Positions 41,463-47,555 of a stretch of 64,000 bases of DNA are shown one piece after another; position 1 is the first letter of the stretch, and each line of letters begins with the position of its first letter. Source of the stretch: Oerskovia jenensis. GTDB lineage: Bacteria > Actinomycetota > Actinomycetes > Actinomycetales > Cellulomonadaceae. The DNA lies in assembly GCF_016907235.1 (NCBI RefSeq), contig NZ_JAFBBO010000001.1, positions 248,001-312,000 of the forward strand. The letters run 5' to 3'. The notes beneath the pieces are model-generated. The model was given only the letters and a program-made list of their open reading frames with translations, did not search any database and was not told the origin of the DNA. Both the position numbers and the translations under genes were made by a program.

Positions 41463-42608
41463 TCACGACCCAGGCACGGCGTTTTCTTGGGCTATGTCCG
41501 TTTCGGGGAGTCCTTCGCTGCCCATCTCCGCGGGCAGGCCGGTCGACAGGGGATGGGAGCGGATCGCGGCGGCGAGCTCACCCTCGATCCGGTCGAGGTA
41601 GACGCCCGTCGTGGCGATCGACGCGTGACCCAGGAGCTCGGCGATGACCTTGACGTCCCAGCCCTGCGCGACCAGGAGCGTGGCGGTCGTGTGGCGCAGG
41701 GCGTGGGGGGTGGCGGCCCGGCGGTACTCCTCGGGCATGCGGGCCACGCACCGGTTGAGCAGCGCGCGGATCGCCTGGGCGTCGATGCGCCGGCCCCGCC
41801 AGGTCAGCAGGAGAGCCCGGGCGGCATCGGCATCTCCCGATCTGCGCGCAAGCAGCGCGGGCCGGAGCGCGGCGAGGTACTCGTCGAGCGCCCGTGCAAG
41901 GGGTTCGGACAGGCTGACGGTGCGCACCGCGCCGCCCTTTCCCTTGATGCGCCAGCGGGTCTGGTCGGGTTCGCGGACGAAGTCGTCGACGTCCGCGCGG
42001 GCGACCTCCGAGACCCGCGGGCCCAGGATCAGCAGGAGCGCGATGATGAGCCGGTCCCGCACGGCGAGGTCGTGGTCGGGACGAGGTCGACCTGCACCGC
42101 TCGTCACGGCGGTGGGCGTGCCCTCCGTCGGCCGCGGCTTGGTGCTCGCGGTCACGAGGAGGGCCTGCGCGGCCGTCGCCGACAGCGCGGTGCGGGCGAC
42201 GCGCAGGCCGCCGCGGAGCCGGGCCGGGGGAGCGGCCCACTGCATCGGGTCGGCCTGGACCCATCCGTCGCGGGCCGCGTGCGTGAAGAACCGGGAGATC
42301 GACTGGCGGAACCTGTTGACGGTCGCGGCCGAACGTCCCGGGCCGTCGGGCTTGGTCCGCGGGTCGGTGTACCGCCCGTCCGGGGTGATCTGGTACCGCA
42401 GGAGGACGTCGTCGATGTCGGCGCCGGTGATGTCGTCGAGGACGGTCTCGGCGCCGGCGAGCGAGGAGAACTCCCGCAGGTCGCGCTCGTAGTTGCGCTG
42501 GGTCGTGGGGGAGAGGACACCACGGAGCGTCTCCGCCGAGACGGAGGAGAGGTACGTGGAGACCGCCTCGGCGACGGTGACGCGGCGAAGGCGAGGAGGG
42601 GCGACCAC
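41463..42608 (-). CDS. Tyrosine recombinase/integrase (first)
   Basis: This 381-aa recombinase has an N-terminal SAM-like core-binding domain (about 10-130) and a catalytic domain with Arg198 (LGPRVSEV), Lys222/224, His302-Arg305 (HALRHTTATLL), His328 (LGHAS) and nucleophile Tyr337. All catalytic residues are present, so it is likely active. It resembles XerC/D-like solitary recombinases more than the phage-type integrase 4 kb away. GTG 42608 follows AGGAG by 8 nt. No phage genes lie beside it. Resident XerC/XerD-type function or a remnant of an integrated element are both possible. Confidence 0.92.
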   Translation of the reverse strand: MVAPPRLRRVTVAEAVSTYLSSVSAETLRGVLSPTTQRNYERDLREFSSLAGAETVLDDITGADIDDVLLRYQITPDGRYTDPRTKPDGPGRSAATVNRFRQSISRFFTHAARDGWVQADPMQWAAPPARLRGGLRVARTALSATAAQALLVTASTKPRPTEGTPTAVTSGAGRPRPDHDLAVRDRLIIALLLILGPRVSEVARADVDDFVREPDQTRWRIKGKGGAVRTVSLSEPLARALDEYLAALRPALLARRSGDADAARALLLTWRGRRIDAQAIRALLNRCVARMPEEYRRAATPHALRHTTATLLVAQGWDVKVIAELLGHASIATTGVYLDRIEGELAAAIRSHPLSTGLPAEMGSEGLPETDIAQENAVPGS

Positions 42609-43914: not shown

Positions 43915-44361
43915 TCAGCCCGCCGCCCGCTTCACGAGGTCCGCGATCGTCGCCTCGTTCTCCGGCGTCAGCTCCGTGAGCGCGAACGCGACGGGCCACA
44001 GGGTGCCGTCGTCGAGCTGTGCCACGTCGTTGAAACCGAACGTCGGGTAGCGCGCTCCGAACTTCTCCGCAGGCTGGAAGAAGCAGAGGATCTTGCCGTC
44101 CTTGGCCCAGCCGGGCATCCCGTACCAGGTCTTCGGCGCGAGCGAGGGTGCGTGCTCGGCGACGAGCTCATGGATCCGGGAGGCCATGGAGCGGTCGGGT
44201 TCCGAGAGCTCCGCGATCTTCTCGAGCTGGGCCTTCTCCGCCTCGGCCCGGTTCGTGGACGCCTTGAGCTCCTTGGCCCGCTCCTTCATCGCCGCGCGCT
44301 CCTCGGCCGAGAAGCCCTCGTAGGCCTTGCTGGTCGAGGTCGACTTCGTGGTGCCGGTCAT
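43915..44361 (-). CDS. DUF1801/YdhG-like protein
   Basis: This 148-aa protein has a Lys/Glu-rich helical N-terminus (about residues 1-60) and a C-terminal DUF1801-like (YdhG) domain: KTWYGMPGWAKDGKILCFFQPA, FGFNDVAQLDDGTLWPVAFAL and a final ATIADLVKRA. Relatives are sometimes annotated as iron chaperones, without clear evidence for bacteria. ATG 44361 follows GAAGGGG at good spacing. It is divergent from the patatin gene. Confidence 0.85.
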   Translation of the reverse strand: MTGTTKSTSTSKAYEGFSAEERAAMKERAKELKASTNRAEAEKAQLEKIAELSEPDRSMASRIHELVAEHAPSLAPKTWYGMPGWAKDGKILCFFQPAEKFGARYPTFGFNDVAQLDDGTLWPVAFALTELTPENEATIADLVKRAAG

Positions 44362-44587
44362 CGCAGTTCCCCTTCGTGGTGTGTCTGCCGTCGGGTTCGA
44401 CGCTACTGAGGGACGACGGCGCGCGCTTCTCCAGATCTGCTCGATCCCGCCGCCGGCACCGTGGACGTGGCGGCACCCGGCTTCCCGGGGACTCCGTGCC
44501 GAGCGGGTCGACCACGCCGCGGACGTGACGCCGACGCGCTGCGATCGGCGAAAACCCCTCTTCCCCTGCCCACGGGTCGTGCTAGCG

Positions 44588-44602
44588 TCACGATGATCGT
44601 GA
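44588..44602. promoter_or_regulatory. Operator-like palindrome at the patatin promoter
   Basis: TCACGAT-G-ATCGTGA is a perfect 7+1+7 dyad starting on the last base of the -10 hexamer, the place where a repressor would block RNA polymerase. Confidence 0.6.
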
Positions 44603-44623
44603 ACCGTCGAGGAGGTGAGACCC

Positions 44624-44683
44624 GTGAACGCAGCATCAGTACCGGGTGCTCCCCCGCAGCCCACGATCGCGCGACGGCGCTAG
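44624..44683 (+). CDS. Upstream leader peptide, 19 aa
   Basis: GTG 44624 is preceded by GGAGGTGA at 5 nt, one of the best ribosome sites of the window, and opens a 19-residue peptide MNAASVPGAPPQPTIARRR ending in TAG. It is Pro-rich in the middle (PGAPPQP) and ends in three Arg codons (CGA CGG CGC). It is out of frame with the patatin gene 46 nt downstream. Its stop codon lies at the 5' edge of the stem that hides the patatin ribosome site. Confidence 0.5.
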   Translation: MNAASVPGAPPQPTIARRR

Positions 44684-44726
44684 TCGCCACCGGGAGCGCT
44701 CGCCAGACACTTCGCGAAAGGCGACT
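44682..44726 (+). promoter_or_regulatory. Stem sequestering the patatin ribosome-binding site
   Basis: AGTCGCC (44682-44688, sharing AG with the upstream ORF stop) is perfectly complementary to GGCGACT (44720-44726), which contains part of the AAAGGCG ribosome site before ATG 44730. A competing short pairing of GGCG (44676-44679) with CGCC (44685-44688) is also possible, which gives two alternative folds. Confidence 0.5.
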
Positions 44727-44729
44727 CCC

Positions 44730-45680
44730 ATGCACACCTCACCTTCGTCCCCCTCGCACGTCCCCGCATCGACCGACCACGGCCTGCAGGGACGCCCTGC
44801 CGGCGGCCGGGCCGTGGTCCTCGGCGGCGGCGGTTCGACCGGCAACGCGTGGCTGATCGGCGTCGTCGCCGGGCTCCTCGAGGGCGGTGTGGACGTGACG
44901 GCCCCTGGCCTGACCGTCGGCACCTCGGCCGGATCGACCGCCGCGGGCCAGCTCGCGGGCGCGTCCCCGGCCGACCTGCTGTCCTCCATCCTTGCCACCC
45001 CTCGTCCAGAGCGACGAGCCCCGGCAGGAAGCGCCCGTGAGCACGCCTCGAACAAGCCGGTCGTCGACCACCTGGAACGGATGCGCGCCCTCATCACCTC
45101 GGCCCACGACCCGGCTGACCTGCGCAGACGCGTAGGGGCCGCAGCGCTCGAGCGGGGGGCGGCGTCGGACGGTTCCTGGCAGGAAAGGTGGCGAGCAACG
45201 GTGGCATCGCGACTTCCCGGGCCGGGCTGGCCGGAGCGGAGGATCCTGCTCACGGCCGTCGATGCCGCTACCGGCGACCCGGTGGTCTTCGACCGCGACA
45301 GCGGGGTGGACCTGGTGGACGCCGTCGCGGCGAGCTGTTCGAGCGGGCTCCCCTACGAGATCGCGGGTCGCCGGTACCTCGACGGAGGTTTCCGGCGCAA
45401 CGAGAACGCCGACCTGGCGGCCGGGTACGAGCGGGTGCTGGTGCTGTCGCCGTTCGGCGGCCGCTCGCTCACGCCGCCGGCGTGGGGCCTGCAGCTCGCG
45501 GCGCAGGTCGACGACCTGCGCGCGCACGGCAGCACGGTCGAGACGATCTTCCCGGACTCCGGCTCCGAGCACCTGTTCGGGGCCGACGCGATGGACGTGT
45601 CCCTGCGCCCGGCGGCCGCTCGAGCAGGACACGCGCGCGGCGTGGCCTGGGCCGAGCGGCTGGTCGCGTTCCGACACTGA
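44730..45680 (+). CDS. Patatin-like phospholipase family protein
   Basis: This 316-aa protein has the patatin features: an oxyanion-hole glycine run GGGGSTGNAW (about residue 33-42), nucleophile elbow GTSAG (Ser about 69) and the DGG of YLDGGFRRNENADL (Asp about 220). No signal peptide is seen, so it is cytosolic or membrane-associated. The substrate, probably a lipid ester, is unknown. ATG 44730 follows GAAAGGCGA. The gene has an elaborate leader with an upstream ORF. Confidence 0.92.
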   Translation: MHTSPSSPSHVPASTDHGLQGRPAGGRAVVLGGGGSTGNAWLIGVVAGLLEGGVDVTAPGLTVGTSAGSTAAGQLAGASPADLLSSILATPRPERRAPAGSAREHASNKPVVDHLERMRALITSAHDPADLRRRVGAAALERGAASDGSWQERWRATVASRLPGPGWPERRILLTAVDAATGDPVVFDRDSGVDLVDAVAASCSSGLPYEIAGRRYLDGGFRRNENADLAAGYERVLVLSPFGGRSLTPPAWGLQLAAQVDDLRAHGSTVETIFPDSGSEHLFGADAMDVSLRPAAARAGHARGVAWAERLVAFRH

Positions 45681-46469: not shown

Positions 46470-47555
46470 CTAGCCGCGCGAGACCGCGCGCAGTCGAGCC
46501 GTCTCGAGCGCGACCGCGACGCCGTCGAGATCCTTTTCGAAGAGGTCCGCGTAGACGTCGAGCGTCATGCTCGCGGAGGCATGTCCCAGCATGCGCTGGA
46601 CGGCCTTGACGTTCGCCCCCGCGGACACCGCGAGGCTCGCGGCGCTGTGGCGCAGGTCGTGCGGGGTGAGGTGGTCGTCGATCCCGGCGTCGCGGGCCGC
46701 GCGGGAGAACCAGCCCGTGCCCGACTTGGAGCGCTTGAGGTAGGTGCCGCGGTCGCCGTGGAAGACGACGTCGTCGCGCCCCTTGCCCTCGCACGCCGCG
46801 GCGAGGTGCAACGCGAGGAACGCGGGGAACGGGACCGAGCGTCGCTCGTGGGTCTTGGGGGTGCCGACGACGATCTCGGAGCCGACCTCGACCGCGTTCT
46901 GGTTGATGCGCAACCGCTGGCGGAGCATGTCGAGGTCGCGGACGCGCAGCCCTGCGGCCTCGCCCCAGCGCAGCCCGCAGTAGGCGAGGACCAGGACGAG
47001 GGTCTCGTGCCGACCGGCTGCGGCGGCCAGGGCCGCGACCTGCTGGTGGTCAAGGTAGGTGTGCTCGCGCCGGACCTTGCGAGGAAGGTTGACCCCGCGG
47101 GCGGGGTTCGTGAGGATGCGCCGGTCGTCGACGGCGTCGTCGAGCAGCGACGCGAGGGCGCCGTGCGCTCGGGCCACGGTGGTCGCGCTGTAGGTGGCGC
47201 TCAGGTCGGAGACCCAGGCCTGCACCGCGGTGCGCCGGATCTCGGCGACGGGCACGCTCCCCCACCGGGGCGTCACGTGCAGCCGCCACGAGCTCTCGAC
47301 CGCCCTGGCCGTCGAGGGCTTGAGGTGGGTCTGCCGCCCGAGCCACGCTCCCCCGAGCTCGCGCACGGTCGAGCGGGCCGCCGTCGGGTCGATGAACTCC
47401 CCGCGCAGGATCGACACCTCGAGCGAGGACGCGAAGGCCTCGGCGCTGCGCTTGGTCTTGAAGCCACGCTTCTTGGTCTGCTTGCGCTCGGGGGTGCGGT
47501 AGCGAACCATGTACCGCCGACCCGCGGTCGTCTCGTACGCCTCAACGGTCGCCAC
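46470..47555 (-). CDS. Phage-type tyrosine integrase (second)
   Basis: This 361-aa integrase has an N-terminal arm-binding-like domain (MATVEAYETTAGRRYMVRYR, KKRGFKTKRSAEAF), a core-binding domain (about 65-160) and the catalytic set Arg196 (CGLRWGEA), Lys234, His299-Arg302 (HDLRHSAAS), His325 (LGHAS) and Tyr335. The arm-binding domain marks it as the phage/mobile-element type. The frame is intact. No excisionase, phage or plasmid gene lies beside it. GTG 47555 gives the family start. Confidence 0.93.
   Translation of the reverse strand: MATVEAYETTAGRRYMVRYRTPERKQTKKRGFKTKRSAEAFASSLEVSILRGEFIDPTAARSTVRELGGAWLGRQTHLKPSTARAVESSWRLHVTPRWGSVPVAEIRRTAVQAWVSDLSATYSATTVARAHGALASLLDDAVDDRRILTNPARGVNLPRKVRREHTYLDHQQVAALAAAAGRHETLVLVLAYCGLRWGEAAGLRVRDLDMLRQRLRINQNAVEVGSEIVVGTPKTHERRSVPFPAFLALHLAAACEGKGRDDVVFHGDRGTYLKRSKSGTGWFSRAARDAGIDDHLTPHDLRHSAASLAVSAGANVKAVQRMLGHASASMTLDVYADLFEKDLDGVAVALETARLRAVSRG

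Follow-up and report, generated by a model that had tools for sequence, protein, structure and literature searches.

Upstream of a patatin-like phospholipase gene in Oerskovia jenensis lies a leader that we read as one member of a family of cis-acting actinobacterial RNAs, in which a ribosome on a short upstream open reading frame (uORF) would set, by translational attenuation, the expression of the next gene; we put the probability of this reading at roughly 0.58. The DNA analysed, referred to below as the window, is the 64,000-nt stretch at positions 248,001 to 312,000 of contig NZ_JAFBBO010000001.1, and all coordinates are those of the window. Comparison with related leaders shows a retained uORF frame, competing arms over the Shine-Dalgarno (SD) site of the next gene, five enzyme families behind the leader and a WblC-type promoter box in many of its copies. 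Best read in this light, the leader would be an exchangeable cassette controlling stress or drug-defence enzymes. We infer the role in defence, for which the rifampin monooxygenases alone give support by name.

The leader can be described by a set of candidate helices. P0 joins the 5′ end of the transcript to codons 13-15 of the uORF, P1 joins codons 8-10 to a downstream segment (segment 6, GGGAGCGC), Pa joins the end of the uORF to an arm overlapping its stop codon, and P2 joins this same arm to the next SD. P3 pairs segment 6 with the SD, P4 pairs segment 6 with CTCCC just 5′ of the SD, and P5 pairs the uORF SD with codons 7-10. In the proposed mechanism a promoter, which in many relatives is of the WhiB7/WblC (translation-stress) type, would drive transcription from about 44595. 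The strong SD would then recruit ribosomes to a uORF that ends immediately 5′ of segment 6. The stop-overlapping arm (AGTCGCC in the window) would pair either with the uORF end, leaving the next SD free of it, or with that SD, hiding it. Segment 6 would have a similar choice between the uORF on its 5′ side (P1) and the SD or bases next to it on its 3′ side (P3 or P4). The position of the ribosome on the uORF would set which of these pairs form; it would be the signal, set probably by translation-inhibiting drugs or similar stress.

Distribution of the leader over genomes and enzyme families

To collect patatin loci, a genome collection was scanned by way of conserved peptides, and the best 80 of 187 relatives were used. 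Leaders were anchored on GGAGGTG, so the invariance of the uORF SD is partly due to selection. The related sequences are not independent, and some loci with G handles probably come from the same genomes as named loci. GGAGGTG with a following uORF was present in 78 of the 80 best patatin loci, in hosts that include Arthrobacter, Cellulomonas, Agromyces, Nakamurella, Aeromicrobium, several Nocardiaceae and others. The 78 leaders, the window and locus L003 form alignment A1 (80 sequences), from which covariance model R1 was built; a second model, R2, was built from 50 diverse leaders (A2), and the E-values of both are rough. The two exceptions, L063 and L084, have no GGAGGTG/uORF leader and gave no R2 match either.

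Scanning 396 genomes of the phylum with R1 gave matches in 18, and the genes behind them were not patatins alone. In one family, probably Streptomycetaceae, R1 matched 128 of 150 genomes with up to five copies per genome, and R2 matched 121 of 394 genomes of the class, covering 43 of 138 genera. Besides patatins, the leader was found before alpha/beta hydrolases, GNAT acetyltransferases, rifampin monooxygenases and PrmC-related methyltransferases, so the view of the first-pass annotation, in which it belongs to the patatin gene, is too narrow. Among 92 loci (L133-L224), 86 yielded 89 parsed leaders and six yielded none; these leaders precede an alpha/beta hydrolase (62), a GNAT protein (12), a patatin (7, window included), a flavin monooxygenase (4) or a frame-broken hydrolase-like copy (1), and three have no ORF (open reading frame) behind them. 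A further 69 loci, namely 66 of the 70 from the R2 scans plus three earlier ones, comprise 23 monooxygenases, 20 PrmC-related methyltransferases, 16 hydrolases, 5 patatins, 3 GNAT proteins, one short ORF and one locus without gene assignment. One monooxygenase passes NCBIfam NF033145 for rifampin monooxygenase (846.8, cut-off 800) and one methyltransferase passes TIGR03704 (426.2, cut-off 248.8); the other members of both groups were assigned by similarity to these two proteins.

Named Streptomyces records carry the same leader before the same hydrolase, which supports the assignment of the family above to Streptomycetaceae. R2 was run on 5 of 38 plasmid records with a relative of that hydrolase: three from Streptomyces scored 121-132 bits and one from S. 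angustmyceticus 37.8 bits, and the Nonomuraea gerenzanensis record gave no leader match at E up to 1. Carriage by phages was searched for with the 21-base leader core, which had no exact match in viral contigs.

Several single loci deserve mention. L173 has two leaders, one before a monooxygenase and one (L173b) before a hydrolase. In L161 and L288 the leader is followed by a hydrolase-like stretch that is out of frame, and in L262 by a short ORF. Two of the ORF-less parsed leaders, L204b and L208b, look like chance matches within a gene. Compared by eye, the first approximately 35 residues of the rifampin monooxygenases in L167, L173 and related loci resemble the N-terminus of the hydrolases behind the leader, as if leader and gene start had been acquired together.

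Conservation of the uORF frame and stop

We examined 232 leaders in which the gene is preceded by a uORF, mostly of 16-20 codons, that has an SD of its own; L161 was left out, as was L134, which is the window itself, and L262 and L288 were counted in the hydrolase group. In 222 of the 232 leaders (227 measurable), no more than 18 nt separate the first in-frame stop from segment 6, and the other two frames have a stop in that range in 13/232 and 47/232. As the stop occurs at this conserved place far more often in the uORF frame than in the others, both frame and stop are kept. The ten leaders that fail comprise L040, which has no stop, four in which segment 6 was not located (L279, L285, L287, L288) and five with the stop out of range (L147, L156, L194, L196, L220). 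In A1, the stop ends 43-53 nt upstream of the patatin start in 79 of 80 leaders.

Such a frame-specific stop argues against a riboswitch-like alternative, in which a structured RNA would bind a ligand or a protein and the uORF would be secondary. In its favor, blocks such as GGGAGCGCC and CACGRYC are kept across the classes whatever the reading frame, and L040 keeps the RNA (R2, 113.9 bits) with its uORF stop lost. Searches of Rfam 15 also speak against it, neither the window nor 24 further loci having matched a family: window positions 44000-45200 gave no match at E up to 1, eight loci searched at gathering scores gave rRNA only, and 16 loci searched at E up to 0.5 gave one match, below the gathering score of its family. 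We therefore regard a riboswitch-like RNA as improbable.

Conservation of the uORF peptide

At the level of the peptide, conservation is limited. In many relatives a small deletion in the middle of the uORF leaves the CACGATCGCGCGAC DNA in place and read in another frame, and the resulting uORFs of 17 instead of 19 codons end at nearly the same place. Likewise, GGGTGCTCCC is retained in a frame that differs by class: most patatin leaders have it as GGT GCT CCC (G A P), and in those of hydrolases, GNAT proteins and monooxygenases it mostly lies within TGG GTG CTC CCC (W V L P). The C-terminal half of the peptide is not conserved. The peptide shows weak signs of selection: at codon 3 (Ala), variation is mainly at the third base in each of the three groups; codon 5 (Ser) behaves alike in the pooled set and in patatin leaders, as do codons 8 and 10 in patatin leaders, where the variable base of codon 8 is also a G-U/G-C position of P1. 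Pooled amino-acid agreement relative to the expectation from independent bases was 0.78/0.78 at codon 3 and 0.59/0.54 at codon 5.

These results bear on the possibility that the short peptide is itself a functional small protein. The third-base variation of codon 3 and the common occurrence of N-A-V-S would fit it; amino-acid agreement barely above the independent-base expectation, in a peptide whose remainder changes frame and sequence, would not, and we give this explanation next to no weight.

The first-pass annotation had proposed that a patatin leader peptide stalls ribosomes on its C-terminal Arg/Pro codons. The geometry of the leader is compatible with this, and in main patatin leaders folded with a ribosome at codon 16 (see below) P1 rises to 0.61 with P2 at 0.10 and the SD unpaired at 0.54, vs. 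0.47 in free RNA. The codons themselves are not kept: the window uORF ends in ARRR and those of the other four Oerskovia leaders in ARLR, TRRR, ARLS and ARPS, 26 of 91 patatin leaders have a 17-codon uORF with another C-terminus, and in many relatives the second half of the uORF is in another frame. Stalling on arginine thus finds no support in the last codons (RRR, RLR, RRR, RLS and RPS in the five Oerskovia genomes), and we consider stalling at these Arg/Pro codons very improbable. An attenuator responding to arginine or another amino acid is not supported either, as no run of control codons is kept in these five genomes.

Coevolution of the stems

To compare the helices between classes, we calculated the duplex energy of each arm pair within its own class minus that of cross-class pairs, without a fixed register, in eight classes and with 300 within-class shuffles; L161, L134, L256, L285, L286 and L291 were left out, and group OER includes two Cellulosimicrobium loci. 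P2, the stem proposed in the first-pass annotation and present in the window as AGTCGCC opposite GGCGACT (44720-44726), averaged -2.62 kcal/mol and was negative in seven of the eight classes. Six control segment pairs averaged -0.64 to +0.44 kcal/mol, with single control cells reaching -4.9. The other helices were on average near the controls (P0 -0.99, P5 -0.64, P3 -0.53, P1 -0.20, P4 -0.19). P3 is strong solely in patatin and OER leaders (-7.0 each; PrmC class -1.9), and P4 solely in the leaders of monooxygenases (-6.2) and GNAT proteins (-3.7) and in the long (-4.2) and short (-1.5) hydrolase leaders.

The own value was reached by 0/300 within-class shuffles for P2 and for Pa, by 2/300 for P3, by 58/300 for P4 and by 268/300 for P0, which is thus unsupported in this test; for three controls the numbers were 35, 26 and 89 of 300. 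Both P2 and Pa, which have one arm in common, stand out from the shuffles, which suggests that the next SD lies in a stem with a competing partner. The P2 complements differ by class when compared by eye (AGTCGCC/GGCGACT, CGTAGC/GCTACG, GGTCGT/ACGACC, AGGTGT/ACACCT). Counted by fixed alignment columns of A1, P1 and P2 showed no covariation beyond shuffles; for P2 this is explained by its register, which differs between classes. In the same alignment P0, Pa and P3 together had 9 pairs with changes on both sides vs. 4.8 in shuffles (4/500 as high). P0 has both-side changes in A1, and a TA to CG exchange at 44597:44666 in A2. P1 is paired in 98.6% of cells (44645-44653 with 44692-44700, A1) and nearly invariant, without covariation. 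By these comparisons P2 is the best supported helix and Pa the next, P0 is uncertain, and P1 is conserved and too invariant to judge.

The window leader alone folds no better than shuffled sequence (z -0.48; 59/200 shuffles equally good), and the case for its structure therefore rests on the comparison with relatives.

Folding with ribosome footprints

We folded 160 leaders in seven groups with a ribosome footprint placed at set codons (L008, L026, L040, L049 and L077 not included). A first folding walk showed almost no effect of ribosome position; later runs used per-helix measures and shorter RNAs. With the ribosome at the stop, P2 was at 0.00-0.20 in all seven groups. With the ribosome at codon 14 it was at 0.70-1.00 in five of them; free RNA and codon 14 gave, respectively, 0.17 and 0.70 in main patatin, 0.88 and 1.00 in Agromyces-type, 0.35 and 0.51 in further patatin, 0.68 and 0.79 in long hydrolase, 0.74 and 0.85 in GNAT, and 0.60 and 0.95 in monooxygenase leaders. 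Short hydrolase leaders differ in that P2 falls slightly, from 0.69 in free RNA to 0.62 at codon 14. In main patatin leaders P3 occupies the SD in most states and yields when P1 forms, P1 being at 0.55 with a ribosome at the start codon that also blocks P0 and at 0.61 with a ribosome at codon 16. Folding is thus compatible with a switch set by ribosome position, and does not discriminate between a stall at the start and a stall near the end of the uORF.

The loss of P2 with a ribosome at the stop would equally be expected from plain translational coupling, in which uORF ribosomes reaching the stop open P2 and give a fixed level of expression, with no stalling and no signal. A uORF whose frame and stop are kept and whose mid-peptide is not agrees with this explanation too. 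Coupling by itself leaves unexplained why Pa, the alternative partner of the P2 arm, passes the within-class shuffles, and why the P1 arm is conserved; we give it a low, though not negligible, probability.

Predicted promoter and WblC/WhiB7-type box

According to the available part of PMC7157823, WblC-activated promoters consist of GAAAWY, followed after 3 nt by a weak -35 and, 16-19 nt further on, by TANNNT; the start lies 7-8 bp past the -10, and resistance to translation-targeting drugs is under WblC/WhiB7 control. The predicted promoter in the window, GAAAAC-CCC-TCTTCC-18 nt-TAGCGT, has this box and spacing, with a poor -35. From the position of the -10 and the published distance, the start is predicted at approximately 44595, the first base of GATCGTGA. 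For counts by group we used a looser A-box at -68 to -50 from the uORF SD and a control stretch that covers part of the loci. The A-box was found in 47/79 hydrolase, 11/15 GNAT, 18/27 monooxygenase and 2/5 Oerskovia leaders (controls 2, 1, 0 and 0). As WblC/WhiB7 controls resistance to translation drugs, the box would link many copies of the leader to drug stress.

Two further stretches were noticed by eye. A GTGATCAC-containing stretch, possibly a further DNA operator, lies just 5′ of the A-box in many loci of the probable Streptomycetaceae family (L162, L185, L225). An inverted repeat like CCGGCATNATGCCGG lies 5′ of the -35 in several Arthrobacter loci (L020, L037, L060), where other groups have the A-box.

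Oerskovia relatives and the palindrome

Of seven Oerskovia genomes searched, window genome included, five have the patatin gene, and all five have the leader; the two without the gene gave no leader match either. Three of the patatin loci are identical in their upstream sequence to named Oerskovia records (L004 to L007, L005 to L009 and L006 to L008). The block from the extended -10 (TGCTAGCGT) to the patatin ATG is nearly identical in the five genomes, and the DNA 5′ of it has diverged. All elements named in the first-pass annotation were found in the window where it had placed them, and its TAGCGT -10, its strong ribosome site AGGAGGTGA, its short uORF and its AGTCGCC/GGCGACT stem recur in relatives. 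The geometry of attenuation that it described, a uORF with a strong SD and a stop codon overlapping one arm of a stem over the next SD, was likewise borne out.

Its palindrome, TCACGATGATCGTGA, is exact in the window, where it is the sole match at up to two mismatches; a mean of 0.16 is expected, and at least one match occurred in 16 of 100 shuffles. The genome has the exact site once, plus three sites with one mismatch. Of the four Oerskovia relatives, L003 and L006 have a broken palindrome and L004 and L005 a largely intact one, and in the wider leader set conservation is limited to its right half, GATCGTGA. The proposed role as an operator on the start site did not hold, and we rejected it as the main feature of the region: the unconserved left half lies 5′ of the predicted start, and the right half is the predicted beginning of the transcript.

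Evidence against the proposed attenuator

Several results weigh against a ribosome-read attenuator. Coevolution of P2 is missing in the PrmC class (+0.1) and slight in long hydrolase leaders (-0.7), and across classes Pa (-0.63) equals the controls. The folding ignored pseudoknots; in it, P1, although conserved, is rare in free RNA (0.00-0.07), and access to the SD tracks P2 in two of the seven groups only. The unpaired SD was nearly the same in free RNA and with the ribosome at the stop in main patatin (0.47/0.51), further patatin (0.45/0.48), long hydrolase (0.45/0.46), GNAT (0.47/0.47) and monooxygenase (0.39/0.42) leaders, rising only in Agromyces-type (0.49/0.66) and short hydrolase (0.57/0.70) leaders. 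The A-box is not enriched in the other patatin leaders (3/86, control 3) and was found in 0/20 leaders of the PrmC class. L040, from a record named Albitalea terrae (a beta-proteobacterium, 950-kb contig), has leader and patatin gene with no stop in the leader, which may for this reason not work there; the locus may reflect horizontal transfer or a mislabelled contig. Finally, the target of rifamycin is RNA polymerase (PMC10194278, available part), and a drug not hitting the ribosome fits poorly with a plain sensor of translation drugs.

Probable start codons of the PrmC class

In the 20 uORFs of the PrmC class the start codon is ATT in 12, ATC in 6, GTT in 1 and GTC in 1, with no ATG or GTG; ATT, ATC or GTT is found at this place also in 8 of 79 hydrolase leaders. 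Of these 20 uORFs, 18 retain the in-frame stop (19 measurable), compared to 4/20 and 0/20 in the other frames. As the stop is kept in the frame set by AUU or AUC, these are likely used as start codons in this class. The gene for IF3 starts with AUU. A cassette placed before at least five unrelated enzyme families might read the state of the ribosome regardless of the peptide, and in the PrmC class its AUU/AUC uORF would read the fidelity of start-codon choice, like the IF3 gene, and not elongation; this extension is tentative, and on balance doubtful.

Relation to known systems

The leader was not found described in the literature searched, which covered few subscription papers, so that a description may exist. 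Within their available parts, PMC8632094, PMC11109978, PMC8079986, PMC12421871, PMC11550727, PMC7157823 and PMC10194278 deal with related mechanisms and not with this leader; the comparisons with these papers below refer to the same parts. By analogy, the nearest known attenuator in organism and signal is the wblC uORF. The whiB7/wblC attenuator (PMC11550727, PMC7157823) is likewise an actinobacterial uORF that senses disturbed translation, and many leader copies have the same promoter type. It precedes a regulator, whereas the leader here precedes enzyme genes, and the wblC attenuator uses a Rho-independent terminator, whereas here the stems lie over the next SD and a scan for terminator-like sites around the leader, made in the window alone, gave 0 in 44300-44900. 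The ARE5 ABC-F genes tiaA and are5sc of Streptomyces, also antibiotic-linked, are under uORF control with drugs stalling ribosomes at the start codon (PMC12421871); their uORFs, MLV and MVGDDDISG, act with transcription attenuation in leaders unlike this one. The odc1 uORF motif and other uORF candidates (PMC8632094) and the Streptomyces motifs (PMC11109978) likewise combine conserved structure with a uORF, in other gene sets and other lineages. The rifamycin-associated element, a 19-bp palindrome controlling rifamycin-inactivating genes (PMC10194278), resembles the leader, as proposed here, in controlling such genes and differs in being a DNA palindrome, not an RNA leader; the two were compared by description, not by sequence.

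In the translational attenuators of erm and cat genes, a uORF is combined with competing stems that hide the SD, and arrest depends on the peptide. The leader shares with them the uORF and the competing stems over the SD. Unlike in their peptide-dependent arrest, here the mid-uORF frame differs by class and selection at the peptide level is weak. The leader would thus work like other uORF attenuators, and what appears new is its presence before five enzyme families, its indifference to most of the peptide and its non-ATG class.

If the ribosome-read attenuator holds true, soil actinobacteria would have a common layer of control over defence enzymes, a curated rifampin monooxygenase among them, on the scale of about a third of the sampled class genomes. 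The leader would also serve as a sequence handle for finding further such genes, and it hints at what unnamed hydrolases, acetyltransferases and patatins may do. The ATT/ATC class, if real, would offer a rare case in nature for testing whether start-codon fidelity serves as a signal.

Features of the window leader and neighboring genes

Table 1. Elements of the leader and the patatin gene in the window.
Feature	Coordinates	Strand	Basis
GAAAAC, fits WblC/WhiB7 box GAAAWY	44550..44555	+	Sequence vs. published consensus and geometry (PMC7157823, available part)
TCTTCC, -35-like, poor match, 18 nt 5′ of the -10	44559..44564	+	Sequence
Extended -10, TGC-TAGCGT (TAGCGT at 44583-44588)	44580..44588	+	Sequence; TGCTAGCGT common to four other Oerskovia patatin loci
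Palindrome TCACGATGATCGTGA, proposed operator of the first-pass annotation; left half unconserved	44588..44602	.	Sequence, comparison
GATCGTGA, predicted first bases of transcript and P0 5′ arm	44595..44602	+	Conserved; start 7-8 bp past the -10 (PMC7157823, available part)
uORF ribosome site AGGAGGTGA	44610..44618	+	Sequence; loci anchored on GGAGGTG
uORF, GTG start at 44624, 19 codons VNAASVPGAPPQPTIARRR, TAG at 44681-44683	44624..44683	+	Sequence
P1 5′ arm (codons 8-10)	44645..44653	+	Partner 44692-44700
P0 3′ arm (codons 13-15)	44661..44668	+	Paired changes in alignments
Pa 5′ arm (uORF end)	44671..44676	+	Partner 44682-44687
AGTCGCC, shared arm, partner Pa 5′ arm or patatin SD (P2)	44682..44688	+	Sequence, comparison
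GGGAGCGCT, arm common to P1 and P3	44692..44700	+	Comparison
Patatin SD region AAAGGCGACTCCC, 3′ arm of P2 and P3	44717..44729	+	Sequence, comparison
Patatin-like phospholipase gene, 316 aa, ATG at 44730, stop at 45680	44730..45680	+	Pfam PF01734, 47 bits, cut-off 27.7

The patatin gene and an ORF at 43915-44361 on the minus strand diverge, and the stretch between them, 44362-44594, may therefore hold two promoters. On either side of the patatin region lie tyrosine recombinase genes (Phage_integrase) at 41463-42608 and 46470-47555, both on the minus strand, which may mark an integrated element.

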